From positions 1 to 46,599 of the forward strand of contig JAABTD010000003.1 of the NCBI GenBank assembly GCA_011390065.1: 46,599 bases of DNA, in the 5' to 3' direction. Below, piece after piece: positions 4,872-18,112 of this stretch; the first letter of the stretch is position 1, and every line of letters starts with the position of its first letter. The position numbers were made by a program, and so were the translations under genes. Under the pieces are notes generated by a model. The model searched no databases. It was not told where the DNA came from and saw only the letters and a program-made list of their open reading frames with translations. The DNA is from Desulfobacteraceae bacterium. Its GTDB lineage: Bacteria; Desulfobacterota; Desulfobacteria; Desulfobacterales; JAABSP01.

Positions 4872-5036
4872 ATGAAAAAAATCATTCCAATTATGGCGGC
4901 GATGGCGATACTGGCGAACGGCTGCACCCATTATGGAAATCTTCGCGATGACCGCATGATCGAGGATGGGGCCGATTCAAGGACGAGGGCGGATAGGGAG
5001 AACCCGGCAGGTTGCAGATCGATAAAGCCGGCGTGA
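4872..5036 (+). CDS. putative small lipoprotein, unrecognised
   Basis: 54-residue frame beginning MKKIIPIMAAMAILANGCTH: two lysines, a hydrophobic stretch and a cysteine at position 18 preceded by LANG, resembling a lipoprotein signal peptide with an imperfect lipobox (Ala at -3). The remainder is hydrophilic (NLRDDRMIEDGADSRTRADR). No clear Shine-Dalgarno; only GGGG four bases upstream. It lies between the methyltransferase promoter and an insertion-sequence remnant, so it may be non-functional or not a gene. No homologue recognised. Confidence 0.3.
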   Translation: MKKIIPIMAAMAILANGCTHYGNLRDDRMIEDGADSRTRADRENPAGCRSIKPA

Positions 5037-5277
5037 GGGCGCAAATAACCCAAGCCGGGCGGCTTGGACCAATGGGGTCATGGGACGGCGTCCGACGGGA
5101 TCGTGAAAGAGGGTTGATAAACTCTCAGCACTTTTGCATTTTTGCCTTTTGCGTTGACAAATGCACATTGAGTGTATTATTTTTTGGCTTTCGCTCATTT
5201 TTCGTTCCGTTTGAATTATCGGGGATAATTTTTCTGGACGATCTCAAGCGGTGATGTCATCGTCATCATAAAACCCA

Positions 5278-5902
5278 TTAACCTGAAGGTTTGCCGTTTC
5301 TGATCACTTCATGGCAAATCTCGAACAAGATGTTGCCATAGCGACGTTCTCCGTCCGTGATCAAGGACAAATCCTGCGTTTGGTTCACAAGCTTTTCCAA
5401 TGTTCCAAGCGCTTTTTTGAAAAGCTTGCGATTCTTTTGACCGCAACGAAGCTCCCAAAGAAAACGGCTGGCTCTATCCATGAGAACTACGGTCCAGCCC
5501 AGAGATTCGTCGGGGGGCGCGTTCTTTCCAACTTTGGTGTAGAGTTCGTCGCCTTCAAAAACGATCTGGATATAGATGTTGAGCAGCGAATATAGAAGCA
5601 GCGTTTGCTTGACTCCGCCGAAACGCCGCTCCCAGTTTAGAATGGTGTTTTTCGCCAGATCGAAGGTTCTGCAAGCGGCGTTTAGACCTATTCCGTCGGT
5701 CATTGGCCTTGATTACTTGGACGACGAGGCTCAGGGGCATTCTAATCCCGGCCAGGAATGTGTTGCTTGTGGGGGAAAAGTAGCCGCCGCAGTTGATGCA
5801 ACAAAATATGGTTCTCTGGCCATGATTGATGGTTTCATAGACTGTGTGCTGTTTGAGTAGCTTGCACTGGCAATTGGGACATGAAATTGAGAAAATGTCC
5901 AT
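5278..5902 (-). pseudogene. IS1-like transposase, frameshifted and 3'-truncated
   Basis: The first half (5902 to ~5700) encodes an N-terminal zinc ribbon with CPNC and CCINC, followed by a helix-turn-helix. The second half continues in another frame from ~5703 (MTDGIGLNAACRTFDLAKNT) into a catalytic domain with FEGDELYTKVG, VLMDRASRFLWEL and ITDGERRYGN, the D-D part of a DDE transposase like IS1 InsB. IS1 elements can use programmed -1 frameshifting between two such frames, but no clear A-rich slippery run is visible at the join. The frame stops just after CHEVIRNG, where relatives continue with a basic C-terminal region containing the last acidic residue, so the 3' end is lost. No terminal inverted repeats identified. 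It marks the left boundary of the polysaccharide island. Confidence 0.75.
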
Positions 5903-6198
5903 AATAAGGCGTCCTCCGCACTTGGTCAGTTGTTGTTTGTCAAGAGCCTGCTCTATGACCTATTTTTCCTATATTATCAATATGTTCAGAACACCCCCAT
6001 TCAACTGAACCAGTGCCTATGATTATACAGTCTCAAAAACAGGATTGACAGCCTGAATTTTTAACATATTAAAATACATGTGTTTCAAAATCAAGCTCTA
6101 AAAACTTGAACATCGAGTGATATGACCCTTCATTTCCCGCTTAAAGAAAAGATGTTTTCCCCATGGATGAAATATCATTGAACCCCGGAAGGGAAACC
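5903..6198. other. AT-rich intergenic region at the left edge of the polysaccharide island
   Basis: About 300 bases between the transposase remnant and the first glycosyltransferase. AT-rich with no convincing gene. It holds the candidate promoter at 6045-6072. An in-frame ATG at 6163 for the next gene lies here but has a poorer ribosome-binding site than the ATG at 6199. Confidence 0.6.
6045..6072 (+). promoter_or_regulatory. candidate promoter of the polysaccharide gene cluster
   Basis: A perfect TTGACA followed after 16 bases by TATTAA in AT-rich DNA, 126 bases before the first glycosyltransferase start. The -35 element is perfect, the spacing slightly short. Confidence 0.4.
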
Positions 6199-7470
6199 AT
6201 GAAGAAACATCCAGACATCGGGTCATCTTCAATCAATGTGCTGGTGCTGGCCCCCCAACCGTTTTTCATGAACCGGGGCACTCCAATTGCCGTCCTGTTG
6301 ATATTGCGTGCTCTTTCCGAACGTGGAGATGTTCGGGTGGACGCTTTGGTCTACCCTTCGGGCGAGGATGTTAAACTGCCAAATGTCGCTTTGCATCGGA
6401 CGCCGTTTTTCCGAGAGAATATCAATGTCCGTCCCGGTTTTTCCTTTCGCAAGTTGATGCTCGACGGGATTATGTTCTTCGTCGCTTGGAAAATGGTGCG
6501 ACGAAAGCGCTACGACCTGATCCATGCGGGAGAAGAGTCGGTGTTCATGGCCATGGTTCTGAAGAGGTTTTACGGCATTCCCTATGTTTACGACATGGAC
6601 TCTTCCGTGGCCCAGCAGGTGATGGAGAAGTTCAGAGCGTTCCGCGCAATTGCACCGTTGTTTGATTTTTTCGAAAGAAAAGCGATTCGTGGCGCCATGG
6701 CCAATGCACCGGTTTGTCATGCTCTGGCGGATTTGTGTCGAAAAAACGGCTCTCGGAAGACGGTTACCCTCCACGATATTTCCCAACTGGAGAACCCGTA
6801 TCGACCCAAAACCGGCGCTATTAATCGGGAAATCGGCTCGAAAGGGCTGATTTTCCTGTATTGCGGCAACCTTGAGGCCTATCAGGGCATTGACCTGCTT
6901 TTGGAAAGTTTTTCCCATGTTTTGCCCCGGAATTCGGGGATCGAACTGGTAATCATCGGCGGGGTTCCCGAGGAAATCCGGTTTTATCGAAAGAAGTCGG
7001 AATTCCTGGGAGTTGCCGACCATGTCCATTTTCTCGGACCCCGACCGTTTGCTGACCTGGATCGGTATCTGGCAGAGGCTGATGTCCTGGTGGCGCCCCG
7101 TATCCAGGGACTGAACACGCCGATGAAAATCTTTCCCTACATGCATTCGGGCAAACCGGTCCTATTGACTCGTCTTCCTACCCATACCCAAATCGTCACT
7201 GATCGTGAAGTTTACCTGGCGCCGGCTGATGCTGAAGGCTTCGCGAAGGGGATGCTGACACTCGCGGAGACTCCGGTACTTCGCCGACGGTTGGGCGAAA
7301 GAGGGCGGGCCTTTGTCGAAAAAAGTCATATTTACGCTGCGCACCGGGACCGAGTCAACGCTTTGTACGATTGGATTCGACGACAGCTCACGGTTCCTCC
7401 GCCTCAGGGTCCTTTCAACCGTCCCATGCAGCCAATTCATTCTACAAGGGTTTCGGAGGAAAGCTATTAG
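6199..7470 (+). CDS. glycosyltransferase family 4 protein
   Basis: GT-B fold retaining glycosyltransferase, probably transferring an activated sugar to a growing surface polysaccharide or lipid-linked precursor at the inner face of the cytoplasmic membrane. 423 residues. The N-terminal acceptor domain opens with NVLVLAPQPFFMNRGTP, whose PxxxxRGTP resembles the glycine-rich acceptor loop; the C-terminal domain has LIFLYCGNLEAYQGIDLLL, HFLGPRPFADLDRYL, and EADVLVAPR...TPMKIFPYMHSGKPVL, the nucleotide-sugar site of GT4 enzymes. Start at 6199 follows GGAAGG with six bases; an ATG 36 bases upstream is in frame. Codon use is less GC-biased than in the flanking housekeeping genes. First gene of the island; the methyltransferase frame follows closely. 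Confidence 0.88.
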   Translation: MKKHPDIGSSSINVLVLAPQPFFMNRGTPIAVLLILRALSERGDVRVDALVYPSGEDVKLPNVALHRTPFFRENINVRPGFSFRKLMLDGIMFFVAWKMVRRKRYDLIHAGEESVFMAMVLKRFYGIPYVYDMDSSVAQQVMEKFRAFRAIAPLFDFFERKAIRGAMANAPVCHALADLCRKNGSRKTVTLHDISQLENPYRPKTGAINREIGSKGLIFLYCGNLEAYQGIDLLLESFSHVLPRNSGIELVIIGGVPEEIRFYRKKSEFLGVADHVHFLGPRPFADLDRYLAEADVLVAPRIQGLNTPMKIFPYMHSGKPVLLTRLPTHTQIVTDREVYLAPADAEGFAKGMLTLAETPVLRRRLGERGRAFVEKSHIYAAHRDRVNALYDWIRRQLTVPPPQGPFNRPMQPIHSTRVSEESY

Positions 7471-7471
7471 A

Positions 7472-7552
7472 ATGGAATGTGATAACATCTGCATTGAATT
7501 TAGAGAAGGCAAAATTATTGCATGCTATCAAGATGAATGGATACCACTCTGA
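7472..7552 (+). other. possible 26-codon leader peptide upstream of the methyltransferase
   Basis: The strongest ribosome-binding site here (GGAGG at 7457-7461) is placed for the ATG at 7472, which opens a frame of only 26 codons (MECDNICIEFREGKIIACYQ...). Its TGA ends one base before an ATG (7554) in the methyltransferase frame. It could couple translation of the methyltransferase or mark a frameshift. Not recognised. Confidence 0.25.
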
Positions 7553-8285
7553 TATGGATGCTTTCCCGGAAACAGCGGATATTGAATCCTCGACCGACGA
7601 GTATGCGCGGCGTTTTGAGGGCCCGACTGGACGATGGATGCTTAAAGTTCAGGAGCGGATCACCCGCAGTCTGATAGCACCGTATGAAATAGGATGTTCC
7701 GTATTGGATGTAGGCGGCGGTCATGGACAGCTTGCAATTCCTCTTAGCAAGGCTGGATACAAGGTCACAGTTGTAGGCAGTGCCATGGAATGCTCTCATC
7801 GGATACAACATGATGTGGAGGCCCGAAACATCCGGTTTCAGGTCGGAAATATGATCGACCTTCCGTTCATGGACCGCTCGTTTGATGTTGTGCTGTGCTT
7901 CCGAATGCTGACTCACTGTGAACGATGGCCCAAGCTGGTTTTCGAGCTCACGCGTGTCGCACGGCGAGTCGTGATTGTGGAGTATCCCACCAGTCAGAGC
8001 ATCAACCGGTTCGCTCCCTGGCTGTTCGAAGCCAAAAAGAAGGTTGAAAGAAACACCCGTTTATGGCGCTTGTTCACCCATGAGGAAATTCGGACAATTT
8101 TTGATCGGTACGGTTATCGAAGAGCATGCATGCAAAAACAGTTTTTTTTCCCAATGGTCGTTCATCGAATGATCGATTTCCTTCCTGTTTCCACCGGGCT
8201 GGAATCTATTGCTCACCACACAGGTCTGATCCGAGTGGCGGGTTCCCCGGTCATTGCCGCTTTCGAAGGCCGATCATTTAAATAG
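7533..8285 (+). CDS. class I SAM-dependent methyltransferase (type 11)
   Basis: Rossmann-fold methyltransferase; substrate probably a sugar or lipid intermediate of the cluster, by context only. About 250 residues. Motif I is VLDVGGGHGQL, followed by the acidic-loop strand VTVVGSA (the usual acidic residue is a serine or glycine here); NMIDLPFMDRSFDVVLCFRM covers motifs post-I and II, as in UbiE/Type 11 enzymes. Start uncertain: the frame is open upstream into the preceding gene; I give the ATG at 7533, with 7554 an alternative coupled to the preceding short frame. The next gene starts 16 bases after the stop. Confidence 0.8.
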   Translation: MNGYHSDMDAFPETADIESSTDEYARRFEGPTGRWMLKVQERITRSLIAPYEIGCSVLDVGGGHGQLAIPLSKAGYKVTVVGSAMECSHRIQHDVEARNIRFQVGNMIDLPFMDRSFDVVLCFRMLTHCERWPKLVFELTRVARRVVIVEYPTSQSINRFAPWLFEAKKKVERNTRLWRLFTHEEIRTIFDRYGYRRACMQKQFFFPMVVHRMIDFLPVSTGLESIAHHTGLIRVAGSPVIAAFEGRSFK

Positions 8286-8301
8286 AAATCAGGTGAAACG
8301 G

Positions 8302-9324
8302 ATGGAAATGTATTCAGCAGATGCGACTCAATTGAATGGCGAGTCTGTCCTGGTGACTGGAGCCACGGGATTCACCGGCCGCCATTTGGTTCGCCGTTTG
8401 GTGGCTGCCGGGGTAAAGGTCCGTGCAATTGCTCGTACGGGATCGAAAATTGATCCATTGGCTGATCTTCCCATCGAATGGTTTAGAGGAGAGGTCTTTG
8501 ATCCGGGAATCGTCCACTCGGCGATGCAAGGTGTTCGCTATGTTTTTCACATGGCCACGCTTTATCGTACCGGATCAGCCACGGAAGCCGCTCACCATGA
8601 CGTGCATGTGACCAGTACAAAACTGTTGGCGCGCGAAGCGGTTTGTCAACCGGATTTCTGCCGGTTTGTTCATGTATCTACCGTTGGTGTCCATGGGCAT
8701 GTTGAATCCCCCCCGGCGGATGAACAAGCTCCTATCCGGCCGGGAGATGAGTATCAACGGACGAAAGCCGAAGCGGAACATTGGTTGGCTGGTTTTGCCG
8801 CCGAGAAAGGACTGTCTTATACAATAATCCGCCCCGCCGCAATCTATGGTCCGGAAGATGATCGGCTATTGAAGGTCTTCCGGATGGCCATCTATCCGAT
8901 TTGTCCAGTTCTGGGGCGCCGCCCTTGTACATATCACTTGATCCATGTCGAGGATCTGGTTCAATTGCTGTTGTGTGCCGCGGTTCATCCCCAAGCGGCG
9001 GGAGAGGTATTTATCGCCGGTAATCCATTTCCAATTCGGTTAGATGAGATGATCCGGATCATTGGACGTACTCTTGGTCGCAATCCTTCCATCGTACACT
9101 TGCCGGTCGCGCCGTTCTGGTGGTTGGCGATTGTTTGCGAGACTATCTGCTCCCGCTTTGGAATCGAGCCGCCTTTATACCGACGTCGGATCAAATTTTT
9201 TCTCAACGACCGGGCATTTGATACCCGAAAAGCACGCGAGCGTTTGGATTTTAAATGTAGCAACAGTCATGAGAAAGGTCTTGCCGAAACCGCCCATTGG
9301 TATCGACGTCACGGTTTATTATAA
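8302..9324 (+). CDS. NAD(P)-dependent epimerase/dehydratase (extended SDR, 3-beta-HSD-like)
   Basis: Extended short-chain dehydrogenase/reductase acting on a nucleotide sugar or sterol-like substrate. 340 residues. The N-terminal nucleotide-binding motif is VTGATGFTGRHLVRRL; the active-site tyrosine and lysine lie in YQRTK; an upstream serine lies in VHVSTVGVHG; substrate-binding elements include IIRPAAIYGP and LIHVEDL. The whole resembles the 3-beta-hydroxysteroid dehydrogenase/NAD-dependent epimerase families, which cannot be separated by eye. ATG at 8302 preceded by AGGTGA with five bases. Within the polysaccharide island the likely role is sugar-nucleotide conversion. Confidence 0.85.
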   Translation: MEMYSADATQLNGESVLVTGATGFTGRHLVRRLVAAGVKVRAIARTGSKIDPLADLPIEWFRGEVFDPGIVHSAMQGVRYVFHMATLYRTGSATEAAHHDVHVTSTKLLAREAVCQPDFCRFVHVSTVGVHGHVESPPADEQAPIRPGDEYQRTKAEAEHWLAGFAAEKGLSYTIIRPAAIYGPEDDRLLKVFRMAIYPICPVLGRRPCTYHLIHVEDLVQLLLCAAVHPQAAGEVFIAGNPFPIRLDEMIRIIGRTLGRNPSIVHLPVAPFWWLAIVCETICSRFGIEPPLYRRRIKFFLNDRAFDTRKARERLDFKCSNSHEKGLAETAHWYRRHGLL

Positions 9325-9817
9325 ACCTTTGCCCACAGGCACTTAAAGAGTTTATGTTGGATTTCTGTCGTATAGTCGTTCGTTCTAAAAAAGTGAATTG
9401 GACTGAAAACGAAACGTCATCTTCAAAGGAAGTAAAGAGCTCGAGAGCAATATTCGCTGTATTGACACTTTTTCCGGCAGAGGACGAAAGCGTGCAGAGC
9501 ACCATCTCCCACCTGGTAGAGGGGATATCCGGTCAATTGTCGAACCTGTCAGTCAAGTCGGCCCGACCTTTCGCACCGACCAAAACTACTGCCCGTCGAC
9601 GGCGGGCGAAGTCAGGCGACGGCTGATCGACAGACAAACCTTACAGCGATGAAGAATTTCCGAAAGAACGAACGATTCGCACCAAACTTAATGAGTTGGG
9701 TTATAAGCCCAAAAAGGTAAATAATCCAAGCTTTTAGAAAAAACGAACCATACGGATGTAACTGGAATTTCGCTGTTTGAACTGCTTATTCGTTTGAAAT
9801 TTAAAATGGAGATTTCC
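9325..9817. other. intergenic region with transposase relic
   Basis: Nearly 500 bases without an intact gene between epimerase and carbamoyltransferase genes. The central part encodes the broken ISAzo13-type transposase annotated separately; the flanks are AT-rich and I see nothing else in them except a possible transcription start region close to the carbamoyltransferase. Confidence 0.6.
9461..9737 (+). pseudogene. ISAzo13-like (Rhodopirellula-type DDE) transposase relic
   Basis: The first frame reads FSGRGRKRAEHHLPPGRGDI, then IRSIVEPVSQVGPTFRTDQ and GEVRRRLIDRQT; near 9637 it shifts frame and continues YSDEEFPKERTIRTKLNELG until a TAG at 9735. The order GGGRKRAE / DIR.IVEP.SQ.DPTFR / AEVRR.LI / Y.DEE.P.ERTI..KLN.LGY is what I remember of the N-terminal half of ISAzo13-family transposases. 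The start and the whole catalytic domain are missing. No terminal repeats identified. A second independent transposon scar inside the island. Confidence 0.6.
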
Positions 9818-11548
9818 ATGAAGATATTAGGAATATCGGACAGCATCACAAGTGGTGCAGCATTGGTGGTCGATGGGGAACTTGTTGCAGCTGTAAACGA
9901 AGAAAGACTCAATCGTCAGAAAATGTCCATGGGATTTCCAAACCTCAGCATCCTGGAAGTTCTTCGAATTGCAAAACTGCACCCGTCCGAAATCGATAAG
10001 GTCGCGGTTGCCACCGAATCCTTGTTCTGGAGGCCGGATGCAGTGCCCTTTACAGATTATTTCCGTGAAAAAAAGGGAGATTTCAGGGACAATTTCCTCA
10101 GTTTGGGTTCTCTTCTTTCCCCCTTTTTTGGAAAATTTAGTTTGGCTCGAAGCACCTACCAAGAAATGAAAAAAAGGCTTACTTTCTCTCGGCATGAAAA
10201 TGTTTTTAATACGCTAAAACACCAGATTGGAATTCAAGCCCCCATTTCATTTCTCGACCATCATTTTTGCCATGCTGCATCGGCTTATTATACTTCGGGT
10301 TTTTCTAATGCACTTGTGGTTACGATGGATGGTGCGGGAGATGGAAAATGCTCTCGAGTATACAATGTCAAAAAAGGTGCTTTCGAGGAGCTGACATCGA
10401 TCGATAGTTATCACTCGGTCGGCAATTATTATGCCTATATCACTCACCTGTGTGGTTTTAAAGCGCACAAACATGAGGGGAAGATAACCGGGCTTGCAGC
10501 TATGGGAAAACCGATTTACAAGGAGATGCTAAAAGAGTTCATTTTTTATCAGGAGGGGCAGATAGAAAATGTCGGCAAATGCTTTGACCAATCTGCCATC
10601 AGTAAGCTGGAAAAAAAATTACCGAATGATTTTTCGAAAGCAGACCTCAGCGCAAGCATTCAGGAAATTTTGGAAGAATCGGTGTCAAGCTATTGTAGCA
10701 CGTTTCTAAAGCGAACCCGGCAGTCGAATATTGCATTGGCGGGCGGCGTTTTTGCCAATGTAAAACTCAACCAGAGAATTAATGAGTTGGATGAAACCAA
10801 GAATATTTTCATTCATCCTGGCATGGGGGACGAGGGTTTGGCGGTTGGTGCCGCATTATCGGCCGCTCATGCGGATCATTCATTTTACTCCGAATCCATG
10901 ATCAAGGATGTCTACTTAGGTGATGATTTCAGCGATCATGAAATTCACGCCGTCATTTCGAAGTATAATTGCCCCATTGTGGAATATTCAGGGAGCATTG
11001 AAGAAAAAGTGGCAGGTTTATTGGCAGACGGTAAAGTCATAGGCCGTTTTTCAGGGCGAATGGAATACGGTCCTAGAGCCTTGGGCAATCGGAGCATTCT
11101 TTATCAGCCTACAGACGCATCGGTAAACGACTGGTTGAACAAAAGGCTTTCCCGAACGGAGTTCATGCCATTTGCCCCTGTAACCCTTTGGAAGGAAAGG
11201 GAGCGATGCTATAGAAACATCAAAGGGGCTGGGGAAACTGCTCGGTTTATGACAATTACTTTCGATTGCACTGATTGGATGCTGAAACATTGTCCTGCTG
11301 TATGTCATGTGGACGGGACTGCAAGGCCACAATTGATAAAGGAGGAGGATAATTCAGAATATTATCGCATCGTGGAAAATTATTTTGACTTGACAGGGCT
11401 TCCCTGTATTATCAATACAAGCTTTAATATGCATGAAGAACCCATCGTAAATACTCCGGAAGATGCGATTCGTTCCTTTATTAGAGGGCACTTGGATTTT
11501 CTTGCTATCGGGTCTTTTCTTCTGTCAAATCCCCAGCCTGCCACGTAA
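9818..11548 (+). CDS. NodU/CmcH-family carbamoyltransferase
   Basis: Transfers a carbamoyl group from carbamoyl phosphate (via carbamoyl-AMP) to a hydroxyl, typically on a sugar; here probably decorating the cluster's polysaccharide. 576 residues, the family's usual length. The N-terminal Kae1-like domain begins MKILGISDSITSGAALVVDG and has the metal-binding LDHHFCHAASAYYTSGF and the ATP-site TMDGAGDG and ALAGGVFANVKLN; the C-terminal domain has GRMEYGPRALGNRSI and LPCIINTSFNMHEEPIV, both signature motifs. The ATG at 9818 follows TGGAG at seven bases. This gene is the most AT-rich in the window, unlike its neighbours, suggesting separate acquisition; it sits between a transposase relic and a flippase relic. 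Confidence 0.92.
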   Translation: MKILGISDSITSGAALVVDGELVAAVNEERLNRQKMSMGFPNLSILEVLRIAKLHPSEIDKVAVATESLFWRPDAVPFTDYFREKKGDFRDNFLSLGSLLSPFFGKFSLARSTYQEMKKRLTFSRHENVFNTLKHQIGIQAPISFLDHHFCHAASAYYTSGFSNALVVTMDGAGDGKCSRVYNVKKGAFEELTSIDSYHSVGNYYAYITHLCGFKAHKHEGKITGLAAMGKPIYKEMLKEFIFYQEGQIENVGKCFDQSAISKLEKKLPNDFSKADLSASIQEILEESVSSYCSTFLKRTRQSNIALAGGVFANVKLNQRINELDETKNIFIHPGMGDEGLAVGAALSAAHADHSFYSESMIKDVYLGDDFSDHEIHAVISKYNCPIVEYSGSIEEKVAGLLADGKVIGRFSGRMEYGPRALGNRSILYQPTDASVNDWLNKRLSRTEFMPFAPVTLWKERERCYRNIKGAGETARFMTITFDCTDWMLKHCPAVCHVDGTARPQLIKEEDNSEYYRIVENYFDLTGLPCIINTSFNMHEEPIVNTPEDAIRSFIRGHLDFLAIGSFLLSNPQPAT

Positions 11549-11728
11549 TATAGTGTTCCTGATGCTGCCGGCCTCCATCAACGGCATCGGCCTGCGGGAA
11601 CAGCTCTTCATCCTGCTGTTCGGCAACGTCGGCGCTGACGGTGTCACTGGCTCGGACTGCCTTCGGCATTTCCCTGCTCCAAACCTTTCTGGGGGGCGCG
11701 ATCTCCGTACGAAGGAGGGGTCGCTGAA
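11547..11728 (+). pseudogene. relic of a UPF0104/LPG-synthase-type flippase-like membrane protein
   Basis: Immediately after the carbamoyltransferase stop an out-of-frame stretch reads NIVFLMLPASINGIGLREQL and FILLFGNVGADGV; a one-base shift then gives SLARTAFGISLLQTFLGGA and a TGA at 11726-11728. LP.SINGIGLRE..F.LLF...G is the conserved C-terminal signature of this membrane family (PF03706); the intact paralogue at 14633 has LSIAGLGAEQGVFVLLF at the same place. Only the C-terminal ~60 residues survive, with a frameshift. Confidence 0.65.
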
Positions 11729-11781
11729 ATTCCTGAATAGGAATCGGAACGTCAATCTATACATAAGGAGGCATTTCCATA

Positions 11782-12234
11782 ATGCGAGTGCTTTGGATTG
11801 TCGATCATTTGGGTTATGGTGGGACCATTCATGGAGCCGGGAAACATTATTACAATACGATTCCAAAGCTGATCGAAATGGGAATCGATGTCTCGCTTTC
11901 CATCTTGAGGTGTCGAGATCAATTGGCGCCGCTTTTCGAAGAAACTGATATTCCTCATATCCATTTGAATCGGGAAAAGTTCGACCCTCGAACGCTTTGG
12001 GACATTATCCGGGTAATTCGAAAAGGGAAGATCGAACTCCTTTATGTCCATGGATACGGTGCCGCTAATTTCGGGCGTATTGCAGGAATGATTTGTGCCG
12101 TTCCCGTTATCGTTCATGCCCATGATCATGACCAAAACTATCCTTTTTATCAGAAAGTTGCAGATTGGTTCCTTCGCTTTCTTACCCATGGTGTGATCCC
12201 AATATCTAATTCAGTAGCATGTGCTTCAAGGGAG
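11782..12234 (+). pseudogene. glycosyltransferase family 4 N-terminal fragment (truncated)
   Basis: About 150 residues of a GT4 acceptor domain, starting MRVLWIVDHLGYGGTIHGAG after a good AAGGAGG ten bases upstream, with LLYVHGYGAANFGRIAGM and PVIVHAHDHDQNYPF as typical strands. Just after PISNSVA, where the linker to the nucleotide-sugar domain should begin, the sequence changes into the tail of a glycosidase-like protein (see next entry) in the same frame. The entire catalytic donor-binding half is absent, so it should be inactive even though the frame is open to 12381. Confidence 0.7.
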
Positions 12235-12381
12235 GCTTTGGTGAAGGCCGTGGCCTTGGTGGCCAAATCTGGCTGGTTCCATGACTTGGGCGAATTCTCC
12301 CGGGACCGGAAATTCTGGTCGGCTCCGGAAAATTCCACTTGGCCTTTGACCATCGGCGACTTTCCGACGCCCCAGGAATGA
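12235..12381 (+). pseudogene. C-terminal fragment of a second glycosidase-like protein fused to the truncated glycosyltransferase
   Basis: Encodes KAVALVAKSGWFHDLGEFSR and SAPENSTWPLTIGDFPTPQE. This aligns without gaps to the intact secreted protein at 15795-17588 (QAVALDAKSGRFYDLGSFSR, TAPEVSTWALAIGIFPK near 17230-17360). Similarity is also visible in DNA. It is thus the last ~48 residues of a paralogue, joined in frame to the glycosyltransferase fragment by a deletion. It also shows where such a protein naturally ends: a stop soon after the IGDFP-type strand. Confidence 0.75.
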
Positions 12382-12388
12382 AACAATC

Positions 12389-13519
12389 ATGGCGCTGTTC
12401 GAAAAAATCCTCAAAGCCTTCCGGGAGATTCCCATCGAGGTTCGGCGGTTCTCGGCCGGCCTGTATCCGGATTTCGTGTCCGCTCCGGACCCGGAGCCTT
12501 TGGGTCAACAGGTTCCGGTGTTCATGTTCCATACCGTGAAGTCCGCTTCGTTCGAAGCGCAGTTGGTTTTTCTCCAGCGCAATGGCTATCGAACGCTGAC
12601 CCTGGATCGGTTCATGGGGTTTCTGGCGGGAAGGCATCGGCTCGAAGGACCTTCGGTGTTGCTGACCTTCGATGATGGCCACAAAAGTTGGTATGATGTC
12701 GCGTGGCCGTTGTTGCGGAAATATGGATGTCACGGAGTGGGTTTCCTCGTCGCCAGCTCGATTCGACCGATACCGGAGGCGGGGCATTGGCTTTCCTGGC
12801 CGGAAGTGCTGGAGATGGAGCGAAGCGGGTCGATGACCTTCGAGTCCCACACGCTCCGCCACGACCATGTGTTCGTCGGGCCGGAACGCGTCGATTTCTT
12901 CCACCCGACCTACCATCGCAATCCGTTGGAACTAGAGGCGCCATGGGTGGATCGGGACGGGCGATATACCAACCGCTTGGCTTTGGGAACGCCGATTTAT
13001 CGGGTCGCATCGCGCTATGCCGGATATCCCAAGATGCTGGACGATGCGGCCCTGCGACGAGCCTGTGTGGAATGGGTCGCCCGGCGGGGCGGAGCCTCTT
13101 TTTTCTCTTCCCCGGGCTGGCGACGATCCCTGGGGGCTTTTTTTCGAATGATGTCCGCTGCTGGCCCGACGCATCATTACGAGACGCCGCTCGAGTTGCG
13201 GGAAAGAATTCGGAACGACTTGGTGCTGGGCCGGGAATTGATGAGCCGTAAACTGGGCCGGCCAATCCGGCATCTTTGCTTTCCATGGGGCGTCGGAAGC
13301 GAATTGGCGGTCCAATTGAGCCGGGAGACCGGCTACGTCGGTAATTTTTGGGTTGTGCATGCCCGTCGAAACACCAACCGTTCCGGAGACTCCGCTTTTT
13401 ACATTCCACGCATTAAGGATGATTACCTGTTCCGCCTGCCGGGCAATGGGCGCCAACCCCTGTGGTCGATTCTGTTGAATAAATTACGCAGACGCGCCAA
13501 GGCGGTTCACATCTATTGA
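12389..13519 (+). CDS. polysaccharide deacetylase family protein (CE4/NodB fold)
   Basis: Metal-dependent N- or O-deacetylase of the carbohydrate esterase 4 family, removing acetyl groups from a sugar polymer or precursor. 376 residues, longer than the ~200-residue NodB core, with an insertion between motifs 2 and 3. Motif 1 is LLTFDDGHKSW (both Asp present); motif 2 is SHTLRHD, the two metal-binding histidines; LCFPWGVGS corresponds to the motif 3 region. No signal peptide is evident, so it may act on a cytoplasmic or lipid-linked substrate. A weak AGGA lies 12 bases upstream of the ATG. The next gene starts 15 bases after the stop. Confidence 0.87.
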   Translation: MALFEKILKAFREIPIEVRRFSAGLYPDFVSAPDPEPLGQQVPVFMFHTVKSASFEAQLVFLQRNGYRTLTLDRFMGFLAGRHRLEGPSVLLTFDDGHKSWYDVAWPLLRKYGCHGVGFLVASSIRPIPEAGHWLSWPEVLEMERSGSMTFESHTLRHDHVFVGPERVDFFHPTYHRNPLELEAPWVDRDGRYTNRLALGTPIYRVASRYAGYPKMLDDAALRRACVEWVARRGGASFFSSPGWRRSLGAFFRMMSAAGPTHHYETPLELRERIRNDLVLGRELMSRKLGRPIRHLCFPWGVGSELAVQLSRETGYVGNFWVVHARRNTNRSGDSAFYIPRIKDDYLFRLPGNGRQPLWSILLNKLRRRAKAVHIY

Positions 13520-13534
13520 GATGGAGGTTCGTCT

Positions 13535-14596
13535 ATGAATTGTTTATCCCCGGATTTTTGTTCCGAAGCGGATCATGTGACCATCGGCGTCGTGAACTAC
13601 AACGGTGTCGACGTGTTGCCGGAAACGATCGCCGCCCTGCGACGGCTCAATTATCCCGCCTACGATATTCTGGTGGTGGACAACGGTTCCGCGGACGGTA
13701 GCCGGGAATGGTTGCACCGGCAAGGCGAGGGGGTTCGTTGCATTTTTCTGGAGGAGAACGTCGGCGCAGCCGCTGCACGCGGCATTGTCATGGAAAAAGC
13801 GACATCGGATTTCATTTTGTTTCTAGACAACGATATTCGAGTTGAAGCCGATGTTCTGACCATTTTGATGAACACAATGAAGAAGGTTCCACAGGCGGGC
13901 CTTTGTCATCCGGAAATAAGAGACCTCACAGACTCCCGAATATTTCATTACAATGGAGGATGTATCCATTATCTTTGCGCATTGATTGCCCGAAATCGGC
14001 CTCCCGAAGGAATGGACCGTCCCGAATTCGAGGTTTTCGACGTCATTTCCGGCGCGGCCTTACTGGCTCGGCGGGAACTTGCCCTGATGGTGGGCGGCTT
14101 TGATGGCGATTATTTTTTTAACTGGGAGGACGGCGATTTCACCGCCCGGATCACGCTGGCCGGGTTTCAATGTCTCAACGTGCCTTCGGCCGTGGTGCAT
14201 CATCGCGCCAAGGGCAGGGGGACGTCCAAGGTGTTTTACCAAGTTCGGAATCGCTGGTATTTTATTCTCAAGCTTTATCATTGGCGCACCCTGCTCCTGA
14301 TTGCTCCGATGCTGCTCGTGTTTGAAGTGATCCAAGCAACGTTTCTTCTGTTCAAGGGCGCGTTGGGTGACTATTGTCGGGGCACTATTGCTGCAGTGCG
14401 GGACTTCCCGAAAATTCTGATCAAGCGTCGAAGATTCATGAAATTAAAAAGGCTCAAGGATCGCGATTGGCTGCACGCCGGCGAACTTTTCGTTCCAATG
14501 CAGCTGGACATGCATTCCGGGATGTTCTTCAAATTGAAACGGGTTTGTTTTTCGATGTTGAACGCCTACTGGCAAATTGTTTCGCGGCTGTGCTGA
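13535..14596 (+). CDS. glycosyltransferase family 2 protein
   Basis: Inverting GT-A glycosyltransferase, rhamnosyltransferase-like in layout, acting on surface polysaccharide. 353 residues. The N-terminal strand VTIGVVNYNG, the UDP/dTDP-binding ILVVDNGSADGS, the metal-binding LFLDNDIR, and the acceptor/base region GGFDGDYFFNWEDGDF are all present. A hydrophobic stretch near residues 245-275 (TLLLIAPMLLVFEVIQATFL) may anchor it to the membrane. GGAGG seven bases before the ATG supports the start. It lies between the deacetylase and the flippase-like gene, all in one direction. Confidence 0.9.
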   Translation: MNCLSPDFCSEADHVTIGVVNYNGVDVLPETIAALRRLNYPAYDILVVDNGSADGSREWLHRQGEGVRCIFLEENVGAAAARGIVMEKATSDFILFLDNDIRVEADVLTILMNTMKKVPQAGLCHPEIRDLTDSRIFHYNGGCIHYLCALIARNRPPEGMDRPEFEVFDVISGAALLARRELALMVGGFDGDYFFNWEDGDFTARITLAGFQCLNVPSAVVHHRAKGRGTSKVFYQVRNRWYFILKLYHWRTLLLIAPMLLVFEVIQATFLLFKGALGDYCRGTIAAVRDFPKILIKRRRFMKLKRLKDRDWLHAGELFVPMQLDMHSGMFFKLKRVCFSMLNAYWQIVSRLC

Positions 14597-14632
14597 CACC
14601 TGTGGAAAGCGCATCATCTATGGTCCGCGGCT

Positions 14633-15631
14633 GTGCCGAAACCGGTCCCGCAAAGGATGTCTTCGTTGTTCAAAATCAAAAAGAACAAACTGGGTTCTTT
14701 CTTCCGGCTATCGCTGGCCGCGGGTTTGCTGGCGTTCCTTTTGCATCGGATCGGATTCTCCGAAATCCGGCAGGTTCTCCATCGGATCGAGCCAGTGTTT
14801 CTTTCGATTCTTTTCCTGTTATTGTTGCTGGATTCGACTTTGCGTGCTCGAAATTGGGGATTGCTTCTCGAGGCTCGAAAAATGGCGCCGCCCCTCCCCG
14901 AATTGTTGTTCAGCTATCTGGCCGGCGGTTTTTTCGGAACCTTTATTCCCTCCAGCTTGGGGACCGATGTCAGCCGCGCTTTTCTAGTCGCCAAGCGGAA
15001 TGGCGTCGGCTCCACCGACTCCGCCGTGGCTATGGTGGTGTTGAACCTCGTCAACTTGCTGGCCTTGTGCCTTTTGGCCTTGTTTAGTTGCATCCTGTTG
15101 TTAGGAACTTCCTTGGCAAACAATCTGGCGTGGGGGCTCGGGCCGGTTGCATTGGGCTATTGTCTTTTGTTTCCTTTGCTGTTGCGGGGTTGGCGTCCCG
15201 TGGGCGCGGGGGCCGATCATCCCCTGCTCGGTCGGATCTTCTCTACTATGAATCGTTTTTCCATCGCGTTGAAAGAATACAATGATCGGCAGGCGCTTTT
15301 AATTCGTTCCCTGTCCATTTCCTTGTTGAATCAGCTCATCGGTATTGCGGCGGTGTATTGCGTTTCGCTTTCATTGCGGCTGGATGTACCTTTTATTTTT
15401 GTGGCCGCGTTCGTGCCAGCCATTTCCCTGAGCCGACTCGTTCCGCTGTCCATCGCGGGCCTGGGGGCGGAGCAGGGTGTTTTCGTTCTTCTATTCGCGC
15501 AAGTCGGCGTCGCGCCTGCGGAGGCGTTTCTCATGTCTTTGTTGCTGTCGTTGAGCAATCTCTGCTTCGTGCTCTTCGGTGGCGGTCTTTTCTTCCTGGA
15601 CAATTGCAGGGCGTGGTGGCGGGCTCGATGA
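14633..15631 (+). CDS. lysylphosphatidylglycerol synthase TM-domain family (UPF0104) membrane protein
   Basis: Polytopic membrane protein of the PF03706 family; some relatives are flippase-like, and in polysaccharide clusters they are usually unassigned transport or lipid-handling factors. 332 residues with about eight hydrophobic segments and no soluble MprF aminoacyl-transferase domain. The family signature is seen in ELLFSYLAGGFFGTFIPSSL with GTDVSRAF and in SIAGLGAEQGVFVLLF. Start uncertain: GTG at 14633 or ATG at 14657, neither with a well-spaced ribosome-binding site. A degraded paralogue of its C-terminus lies at 11547-11728, so the island once had two copies. Followed 163 bases later by the secreted glycosidase-like gene. 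Confidence 0.85.
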   Translation: MPKPVPQRMSSLFKIKKNKLGSFFRLSLAAGLLAFLLHRIGFSEIRQVLHRIEPVFLSILFLLLLLDSTLRARNWGLLLEARKMAPPLPELLFSYLAGGFFGTFIPSSLGTDVSRAFLVAKRNGVGSTDSAVAMVVLNLVNLLALCLLALFSCILLLGTSLANNLAWGLGPVALGYCLLFPLLLRGWRPVGAGADHPLLGRIFSTMNRFSIALKEYNDRQALLIRSLSISLLNQLIGIAAVYCVSLSLRLDVPFIFVAAFVPAISLSRLVPLSIAGLGAEQGVFVLLFAQVGVAPAEAFLMSLLLSLSNLCFVLFGGGLFFLDNCRAWWRAR

Positions 15632-15794
15632 ATCGGGAATTTTCGTTTCGATTGGGGTCATGCTTCACTTATTTTTTCAGCAGGTCGGCCGATACTCTTC
15701 GGCCTAATCGGTTTCCTCTCAGGAATAACTCCGAAAAGGGGGTAACCGGAATTTCGGCACGCTTGGACAACCTGCAATGGAAAGGAGTTTTGCC

Positions 15795-17588
15795 ATGAAA
15801 AATGTTACCCGTTTTTTGTCTGTCTTGATGGTCTTGGCTCCGCTTTTTCTTTTTTTTCTCGCCTTTACTGCTCAAGCCCAAACCAGGAGCACCGACCTTT
15901 GGTACCCCTATGCCGAATGGACTTTCGAGAACATCGATTATTCCGGAAACCCGTTCGATATCGACGCCATCGCAAACTTTTCAGACGGGCGGAAACCCGG
16001 CCTTTTCTACGACGGAAGGAAAACCTGGAAACTCCGGTATATGTGTACTCGGGCCGGAACCTTTTCTTTTTCGGTTTCTTCGACCAATTCTGATCTTAAC
16101 GGCCAAAGCGGAACGGTGATTTGCAGCGATACGGTGGGCCGGCCGGGGCCTCTCGTTCCGGGCGGTCCCGACGACACGCTTTTTTTCGACCCCGCTCTGG
16201 GCCATCCGGTCATCCCGGCCTGGGCGATGTTTCCGAATCTGTTCGACGACAAGCCGACCGAAGCGCAGTTGGAGCAGTGGATGGACAATCATCTCGCCGG
16301 CGACAATGGAACGAAAGGTTCCCAGTTCAGAGGCATGCATTTTGAGGGTCCGACCAATCGCTGGTATAACCATACTTGCAATGGTACGAGGGGGGATTGT
16401 AAAAGCAGTTCCAATCCCGATCCCGAGACATTTCGAAAATATGAACAGATGTTTGCTATGTTGGCCCAACGAAATTCCTTCGCGCATATCTGGTTGTTCT
16501 GGGATTGTCAGCGAGACAAATGCGACCAGTTTCACGACGACCGAATTCCCCAACTCAGAATGAGAAAGTACATGGCACGAAGATGGGGCGCCATTTCCAA
16601 CTGGATGGTCGGCGAAGGCTTCGACAATTTCGAGGACGATACCACGGAGTACGCCAACCAATGGTTTCATGATCTAAAGGACCACATGCCGTGGCATCAT
16701 TTCATCGGCATGCGCGGGTACAAGAACCGCCTGGATCGGAGTATCTGCACGGATTGCAACTACGTCTCTTTCGAGAGCCAGGAGGAGGAGGCGCCCATGA
16801 CCTACGAACGCTGGCACGCCTCCCGCAATGCGGCTACGGATCGGCCGGTGTTCGAGGAGGATCGCTACCGGTACATTCGGAACCGTCATAAAGGGCCGCG
16901 AAACTATGATGGACAGATCATGTACATGTGGGGGCAGGCGCTCAATCTGGGCGTCGGAGCTATTTATGGTTATCTGGAGGGATCATCTGGTCATTTTTCT
17001 CGATACGAAGGCTATCCAGAGGAATGGGCCAAGGGTATCCGGGCATGGCATGATTTCTGGTACGCCACACCGACGGATCCGTATCATCGATTTTTATCCG
17101 GAATGGATTATTGCAACGACCTGAGCCGGGATTCCAGGTCCATCTGTAAAAAAGGACAAGCCTACGTTTTTTATCGAGAAAACGCTTCAAGCCTCCGATT
17201 CGACATTTCGGAAATGAATGTTGGATCGGCTCAAGCAGTGGCTCTGGATGCGAAAAGCGGTCGGTTTTACGACTTGGGCTCTTTTTCAAGAAGCCGGAAA
17301 TCTTGGACCGCTCCAGAGGTATCCACTTGGGCTTTGGCGATCGGTATTTTTCCGAAGCTTTTGGATTCGTCGATCGAACCTGGGCCCGTTTTACCGGCCC
17401 CGACGAATTTCAGTACTTCAAAAAATGGCATGCCGAGGCATTCTGACAACCTGAACAAAGCCGCGCTTCTTGCGAATAGCGTCTCTGAAAAGGTTGCAAA
17501 AGAAATCCAATGGCAGAACAGATGGGTCAATCAAACGGCCGCCTCGTCGAGGCGTGGCAAGTTTTCTCCACCGAATGGTGAGCCATGA
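15795..17588 (+). CDS. secreted DUF5060-type glycoside hydrolase-like protein with foreign C-terminal extension
   Basis: Exported protein probably acting on polysaccharide outside the cytoplasm. 597 residues. Signal peptide MKNVTRFLSVLMVLAPLFLF ending near AQAQ; a beta-sandwich resembling DUF5060 (about residues 35-115: WTFENIDYSGNPFD, GLFYDGRKTWKLRY, NGQSGTV); then a TIM-barrel-like region of the DUF4038 type; then a beta domain around 470-525 (AVALDAKSGRFYDL...STWALAIGIFP) like the collagen-binding-type domain that ends such enzymes. Many cysteines suggest disulfides. From about base 17420 the frame runs antisense through a transposase fragment, so the last ~55 residues are probably not original. 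AAAGGAG eight bases upstream supports the ATG at 15795. Catalytic residues not identified. Confidence 0.75.
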   Translation: MKNVTRFLSVLMVLAPLFLFFLAFTAQAQTRSTDLWYPYAEWTFENIDYSGNPFDIDAIANFSDGRKPGLFYDGRKTWKLRYMCTRAGTFSFSVSSTNSDLNGQSGTVICSDTVGRPGPLVPGGPDDTLFFDPALGHPVIPAWAMFPNLFDDKPTEAQLEQWMDNHLAGDNGTKGSQFRGMHFEGPTNRWYNHTCNGTRGDCKSSSNPDPETFRKYEQMFAMLAQRNSFAHIWLFWDCQRDKCDQFHDDRIPQLRMRKYMARRWGAISNWMVGEGFDNFEDDTTEYANQWFHDLKDHMPWHHFIGMRGYKNRLDRSICTDCNYVSFESQEEEAPMTYERWHASRNAATDRPVFEEDRYRYIRNRHKGPRNYDGQIMYMWGQALNLGVGAIYGYLEGSSGHFSRYEGYPEEWAKGIRAWHDFWYATPTDPYHRFLSGMDYCNDLSRDSRSICKKGQAYVFYRENASSLRFDISEMNVGSAQAVALDAKSGRFYDLGSFSRSRKSWTAPEVSTWALAIGIFPKLLDSSIEPGPVLPAPTNFSTSKNGMPRHSDNLNKAALLANSVSEKVAKEIQWQNRWVNQTAASSRRGKFSPPNGEP

Positions 17589-17663
17589 ATTGATCAGAAC
17601 AAAGGCCGCCGTTGCCAACAACAACCGATATTTAGGGTCTTGGCTGGATGTTCGTCTTTTCAT
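17418..17663 (-). pseudogene. C-terminal remnant of a DDE transposase (IS4/ISH3-like)
   Basis: Minus-strand frame RTSSQDPKYRLLLATAAFVL, INSWLTIRW, LATPRRGGRLID, followed by a hydrophobic helix. The order 'R(T)TS.(N/D)P.YRLLL...LVL.N.W....W......PRRGGR' is, as I recall it, the C-terminal end of a widespread group of IS4-superfamily transposases. The N-terminal and catalytic parts are absent; bases 17664-17800 contain only frameshifted debris. Its downstream part overlaps, on the other strand, the last ~165 bases of the glycosidase-like gene. It marks the right boundary of the polysaccharide island. Family name is from memory and approximate. Confidence 0.55.
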
Positions 17664-18112
17664 TTGACCGCTTGAGCTTTCATCTTACATGCACTGTGGC
17701 TATTACCAAATCGCTTTCACTTTGTCCCGAACTTTTTGATTAATAAATCGCTTTCTTGCGGCTCATCAATCAATTCTGCAAACCGCAACATCAGAATTCC
17801 ATCATAAACAAAACGGCAGGTATCTTATTTTGTTGTGACTCCCTAAGATGGTGGCATTCTTTTTCTATATGAGAAAATTTCAGATTGGATTTACAATGAA
17901 ACTCGATATGGAATGCGGATATGAATCTGGATTTTCAATAAAATATGTTTCTATACGTAGGCTCTATTATTATATCCAGAGACCGAGCGTCAGGTCATCC
18001 AGGAAATGGCTGAAATCCGAACAGATGCCGACGCTCGGCGCTCAAATGGAAGAGAGGCGTCAGGGGACGCGGTCGGGGGAAGACCCGGTAGATGCTGTGA
18101 GGGGTAGAGACA
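17664..18112. other. gene-poor AT-rich region right of the island
   Basis: About 450 bases with no convincing gene. AT-rich on the left, returning to high GC near 18050. It contains a perfect 9-base inverted repeat (CCGAGCGTC at 17983-17991 and GACGCTCGG at 18030-18038) separated by 38 bases. I see no tRNA or terminator with a T-run. Confidence 0.5.

Follow-up and report, generated by a model that had tools for sequence, protein, structure and literature searches.

Remnants of a flippase-like gene, a GT4 glycosyltransferase gene and a DUF5060-type glycosidase gene within a low-GC glycan island of a Desulfobacteraceae bacterium

The window analysed here is a stretch of 46,599 nucleotides of DNA from a Desulfobacteraceae bacterium. 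Between about 4.9 and 18 kb its GC content falls to about 42–61%, compared with 62–65% in the flanking genes, which encode a homocysteine S-methyltransferase and an acyl-CoA dehydrogenase. A domain search identified in this island genes for a GT4 glycosyltransferase, a methyltransferase and an epimerase, all upstream of the stretch of 11.54–12.38 kb with which we are chiefly concerned, as well as for a carbamoyltransferase, a deacetylase, a GT2 glycosyltransferase, a flippase-like protein and a glycosidase. The GT4 gene, at 6163, matched TIGR04063 at a score far below the cut-off. The features discussed below are as follows.

4900–18000, no strand assigned: low-GC glycan island, flanks about 62–65% GC (composition, domains)
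9794–11548, + strand: NodU-type carbamoyltransferase, apparently intact, with its stop codon at the flippase-fragment junction; 43% GC (PF02543, PF16861)
11535–11726, + strand: C-terminal remnant of a PF03706 (UPF0104) flippase-like protein, with a frame change near 11636–11644; 61% GC (profile match)
11782–12246, + strand: GT4 glycosyltransferase N-terminal domain with its own Shine-Dalgarno-like AAGGAGG; 44% GC (PF13439)
12247–12381, + strand: tail (~45 residues) of a DUF5060-type glycosidase, continuing the reading frame of the GT4 remnant; 58% GC (similarity to the intact protein)
12389–13519, + strand: polysaccharide deacetylase, distantly PgaB-like (PF01522, E 1e-14; TIGR03938, 89.6 bits, below the 321.9 cut-off)
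13535–14596, + strand: GT2 glycosyltransferase (PF00535)
14633–15631, + strand: intact PF03706 flippase-like protein (PF03706, 127.8 bits; TIGR00374, 68.2 bits, cut-off 43.2)
15795–17588, + strand: intact DUF5060-type secreted glycosidase (PF16586, 29.6 bits, cut-off 27.2)

The carbamoyltransferase spans positions 1–168 of the 170 in its C-terminal domain, PF16861, and the intact flippase-like protein exceeds the PF03706 cut-off of 33.4 over profile positions 3–300 of 302. The N-terminus of the intact glycosidase looks by eye like a signal peptide. For this gene the initial annotation had chosen the start at 15795, and we keep it in preference to the ATG at 15777 further upstream, since the sequence separating the two starts includes a Shine-Dalgarno-like AAAGGAG. 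The island has the look of a typical variable cluster of surface-glycan genes, acquired horizontally. No DUF5060 homologue was found in genomes of the same genus and family (G001–G003), and the best counterparts of the flanking acyl-CoA dehydrogenase in the nearest genomes are 34–35% identical, so that they offer no usable empty-site comparison. At the left border of the island, two overlapping frames on the − strand (5278–5903) look by eye like pieces of a disrupted IS1-like transposase, with an N-terminal CxxC zinc motif followed by a DDE-like part; they gave no Pfam match.

Three fragments sit between the carbamoyltransferase stop codon and the deacetylase start at 12389. All lie on the + strand and follow one another as the C-terminal end of a PF03706 protein, the N-terminal part of a GT4 and the tail of a DUF5060 glycosidase. 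The initial annotation had described the same three relics in the same places and order, and profile, Pfam and alignment evidence confirmed each of them.

The flippase relic carries the conserved C-terminal motif of its family, LPxSIxGxGxRE, and the helix that follows it. We compared it with a 338-position profile built from 14 flippases, the intact flippase of the window included. Its first frame, LPRNIVFLMLPASINGIGLREQLFILLFGNVG, matched profile positions 265–296 with E 2.6e-10 in a three-sequence test; with an earlier profile, which likewise contains the intact flippase, it was found with E 1.7e-4 among the six-frame ORFs of the window and 14 loci. The second frame, TVSLARTAFGISLLQTFLGGAISVRRRGR*, falls on profile positions 302–329 with 2 bits only (E 0.014), and on its own this half had no significant match to any single flippase (z up to 2.1). 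Codon-position GC in the relic (0.60/0.30/0.87) backs the first frame only. Thus, the proposal that this is a frameshifted flippase C-terminus is secure for the C-terminus; the frameshift is co-linear and plausible rather than proven, since the second frame, though it occupies the next profile positions, adds just those 2 bits.

The relic is no closer to the intact flippase downstream than to flippases of other genomes. In comparisons with 14 PF03706 proteins the intact flippase scored 62 against the relic, and it was outscored by six of the 14: L035 (83), L054 (82), L061 (80), L038, L041 and L044; one further protein tied with it. There was no DNA similarity between the relic and the intact flippase gene. 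Judged by the six higher scorers and the missing DNA match, the intact copy is not the one to which the relic is most similar. As the relic is 39 residues long, the ranking of scores argues against a close paralogue and does not place the relic in a subfamily.

The GT4 relic matched PF13439 with E 3.7e-12 over profile positions 2–149 of 170 and lacks the C-terminal glycosyltransferase domain. It had no other match in its own genome and distant relatives only among 58 related genomes; the glycosyltransferase of the intact set downstream is a GT2, not a GT4. The glycosidase relic, in contrast to the flippase relic at the DNA level, aligned significantly with its intact counterpart, with 29 of 41 residues identical to the protein encoded from 15795 (genome-wide E 2.2e-11) and 68% DNA identity over 124 bp. 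The intact protein extends ~75 residues beyond the end of the remnant. This last part, encoded by 17365–17588, has no counterpart in the relic or in homologues; recombination at the 3′ end of the gene may have added it.

The GT4 and glycosidase relics form a single open frame of 199 codons (11782–12381) with its junction at 12246/12247. One might suppose that this fusion is a functional small protein and not debris, given its ATG start, the Shine-Dalgarno-like AAGGAGG and a frame that stays open across the junction; however, one joining in three would be in frame by chance, no relative of such a fusion turned up, and the product would join half of a cytoplasmic enzyme to the tail of a secreted one without its catalytic part. 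We therefore regard a functional fusion as very improbable. Because the GT4 piece has lost its second domain and the glycosidase piece has no catalytic domain, the fragments should be non-functional.

The initial annotation had taken the relics for a duplicate of the downstream set, one copy of which had decayed by deletion. Most of this reading is wrong. The glycosidase alone has a paralogue; the flippase piece has no particular relationship to the intact flippase, and the GT4 piece has no intact counterpart. The base composition is a mosaic rather than that of one decayed copy: GC steps from 43% in the carbamoyltransferase to 61% in the flippase fragment, down to 44% in the GT4 fragment and up again to 58% in the glycosidase fragment and deacetylase. 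A single duplication of a flippase and glycosidase module would account for the agreement in order and strand between the relic and intact sets, and for the clear paralogy of the glycosidase pieces, and a relic as short as the flippase fragment leaves room for an old, fast-diverged paralogue. Yet it is at odds with the closer resemblance of this fragment to six flippases of other genomes, with the unmatched GT4 piece and with the alternating GC, and we judge it unlikely. Because GC alternates piece by piece and the glycosidase is the sole paralogue, several recombination events are likelier than one duplication and one deletion.

The abrupt GC changes at the junctions might also be produced by an assembly artefact, a join between contigs from co-occurring strains whose polysaccharide islands differ. 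The assembly has 464 contigs and an estimated contamination of 4.8%. However, no long shared sequence that could drive a misjoin was present between the relic stretch and 12.4–18.3 kb, the two regions compared, and the fragments lie within a single-strand cluster of related function. An artefact is, in our view, quite unlikely.

Together, these data make it probable that the stretch is recombination debris within a horizontally acquired surface-polysaccharide or glycolipid island in which the intact genes do the work. Such decay is the ordinary turnover of a fast-changing cluster, and the relic on its own merely illustrates the turnover of such clusters; the earlier observation was largely right, and its reading as a duplicate set mostly was not. 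From the GC steps and the junctions we infer the following history. An older cluster would have held a flippase-like gene with a DUF5060 glycosidase gene downstream, directly followed by the deacetylase gene. Later exchanges would have brought in the low-GC carbamoyltransferase and GT4 segments, and a deletion from the middle of the GT4 gene into the glycosidase gene would then have spared no more than the end of the flippase gene, the start of the GT4 gene and the end of the glycosidase gene.

What the intact glycosidase resembles was examined further. Its N-terminal part matched a solved putative glycoside hydrolase, 4n0r, with E 8.2e-6. Two acidic residues, D283 and E361 (numbering of 15777–17588), are conserved in three homologues and are candidates for the catalytic pair expected of a GH140-like (beta/alpha)8 domain. 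An AlphaFold model from a two-sequence alignment reached a mean pLDDT of 37 and was not used for a fold search. An archaeal homologue, L003, is 51% identical to the window glycosidase and has a weak, borderline match to the PF13204 apiosidase family (26.0 bits, cut-off 26.5). It is a 993-aa surface-type protein (9980–12961 on a Nanoarchaeota-labelled MAG contig), the identity holding over its first 500 residues, and this likeness suggests transfer between domains of life. Directly 5′ of its gene lies an AbiEi/AbiEii-like type IV toxin-antitoxin pair (8144–9581). A second, more distant archaeal homologue is found in G816 (L045). The archaeal genes (L003/L046 and L045) have unrelated neighbours and no PF03706 gene among them. 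Viral contigs gave 18 pattern matches, none of them a relative; plasmids gave no match for the window glycosidase and one distant match for the DUF5060 protein of L054.

The shared order of flippase and glycosidase genes had also been read as a module that travels together, with the two products perhaps acting together. DUF5060 genes are rare, occurring in 3 of 395 genomes of a phylum sample and in 6 of 258 genomes of the order. In three of these six (the window, G935 and G898) the gene lies just downstream of a PF03706 gene, on the same strand and in a glycan cluster. The order in G935 (L054) is flippase, GT2 and DUF5060 glycosidase; its GT2 is 32% identical to that of the window over the full length (E 5e-49), and the same cluster has a GT4 and an epimerase 41% and 36% identical to those of the window. 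In G898 (L061) the flippase gene is directly followed by a shortened DUF5060 gene and then by genes for the exosortase EpsH and an EpsI-like protein. Because G935 and G898 belong to one genus, the pair amounts to two independent cases. In addition, what the window DUF5060 protein shares with those of L054 and L061 is mainly the N-terminal domain, so that their activities may differ. The DUF5060 gene of G898 (L061 13017–14075, − strand) has 353 codons, well short of its relatives (556 aa in L054), and is possibly another decaying copy.

Elsewhere the two families were apart. No flippase was present in the fetched sequence of the other three DUF5060 genomes of the order (G876, G899 and G925) or of five further loci (G133, G187, G1061 and the archaeal G446 and G816, the archaeal contigs being short); G133 has a deacetylase gene nearby. 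By locus, no PF03706 gene was found in the fetched 15–20 kb of the DUF5060 loci L033, L034, L053, L060 and L062 or of the related glycosidase locus L052, and ten PF03706 loci of the order (L035–L044) had no DUF5060 gene. The observed three of six near a flippase lies far above a crude random-placement expectation of about 0.001–0.007 per gene, a rough calculation for which copy numbers per genome were assumed (2 were measured in the own genome of the window); the enrichment would be much weaker relative to glycan-cluster genes than relative to random genes. The idea that the two families are not neighbours elsewhere is contradicted by two of the ten other loci and fits the other eight. That the same order and strand recur in two other genomes, and that the relic keeps the order, speaks for a module. 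The neighbourhood is real, though thinly sampled, and lends the module idea modest independent support. A further, tentative proposal is that the genes for the PF03706 flippase-like protein and the secreted DUF5060 glycosidase make up a recurring unit whose two products export and process surface glycans; the unit would pass from cluster to cluster and decay time and again, as in the relic here and the shortened DUF5060 gene of G898. We find this doubtful.

Proteins of the UPF0104/PF03706 family occur widely, for the most part with no cargo assigned. The label of flippase comes from their homology with the flippase domain of MprF (PMC5898192). In Pseudomonas aeruginosa the three-gene glycolipid operon gpgSDF encodes a GT4 glycosyltransferase, a COG3233 deacetylase and a UPF0104/COG0392 flippase-like protein, GpgF, whose flippase role is putative, and hexSDF of Clostridioides difficile is described as an analogous glycolipid operon (PMC12713373). 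The window too has a deacetylase, a GT2 and a PF03706 protein in a row. In contrast to gpgSDF and hexSDF, the adjoining glycosyltransferase is a GT2 and not a GT4, the deacetylase is of the PF01522/PgaB type and not COG3233, and the set is larger by a secreted DUF5060 glycosidase gene and a number of other glycan genes. The PF01522/PgaB-like deacetylase and the neighbouring GT2 rule out a gpgSDF-like three-gene operon. A secreted glycosidase gene inside a polysaccharide biosynthesis cluster, as in the window, is a feature shared with PslG, PssZ, BcsZ and PgaB; glycosidases are common in exopolysaccharide operons, and in one study Psl production is aided by the hydrolysis that PslG carries out, a point disputed in another study cited there (PMC6813494). 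However, the window glycosidase is of another family, and machinery of the Psl, Pel, PNAG or cellulose synthase type was not seen next to it. Exosortase-associated exopolysaccharide clusters offer a third likeness, as the flippase and DUF5060 genes of G898 lie directly 5′ of exosortase EpsH and EpsI-type DUF3485 genes, but there is no exosortase among the scanned genes of the window.

By analogy with these systems, the probable task of the intact pair is to move a lipid-linked glycan and to process its product outside the inner membrane. The glycan would be assembled on its lipid by GT4 and GT2 enzymes at the inner leaflet and modified by the deacetylase, which would expose amino groups; with help from the PF03706 protein it would cross the membrane, and outside the product would be cut or trimmed by the DUF5060 enzyme, much as PslG-type glycosidases do. 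The order of steps, the flippase and glycosidase activities and the substrates are all putative, and the two proteins may act together. A rare glycosidase encoded one or two genes 3′ of a PF03706 gene would point to a glycan as the cargo, to be processed once transferred, and the flippase-DUF5060 pair provides a concrete pair of genes for testing. Several genomes of the order have an HpnA-like epimerase gene within about 5 kb of their PF03706 gene, which is also the situation in the island of the window:

L037, 7061–8062: HpnA-like epimerase near PF03706
L041, 12497–13480: HpnA-like epimerase near PF03706
L043, 7411–8382: HpnA-like epimerase near PF03706
L054, 13320–14294: HpnA-like epimerase near PF03706
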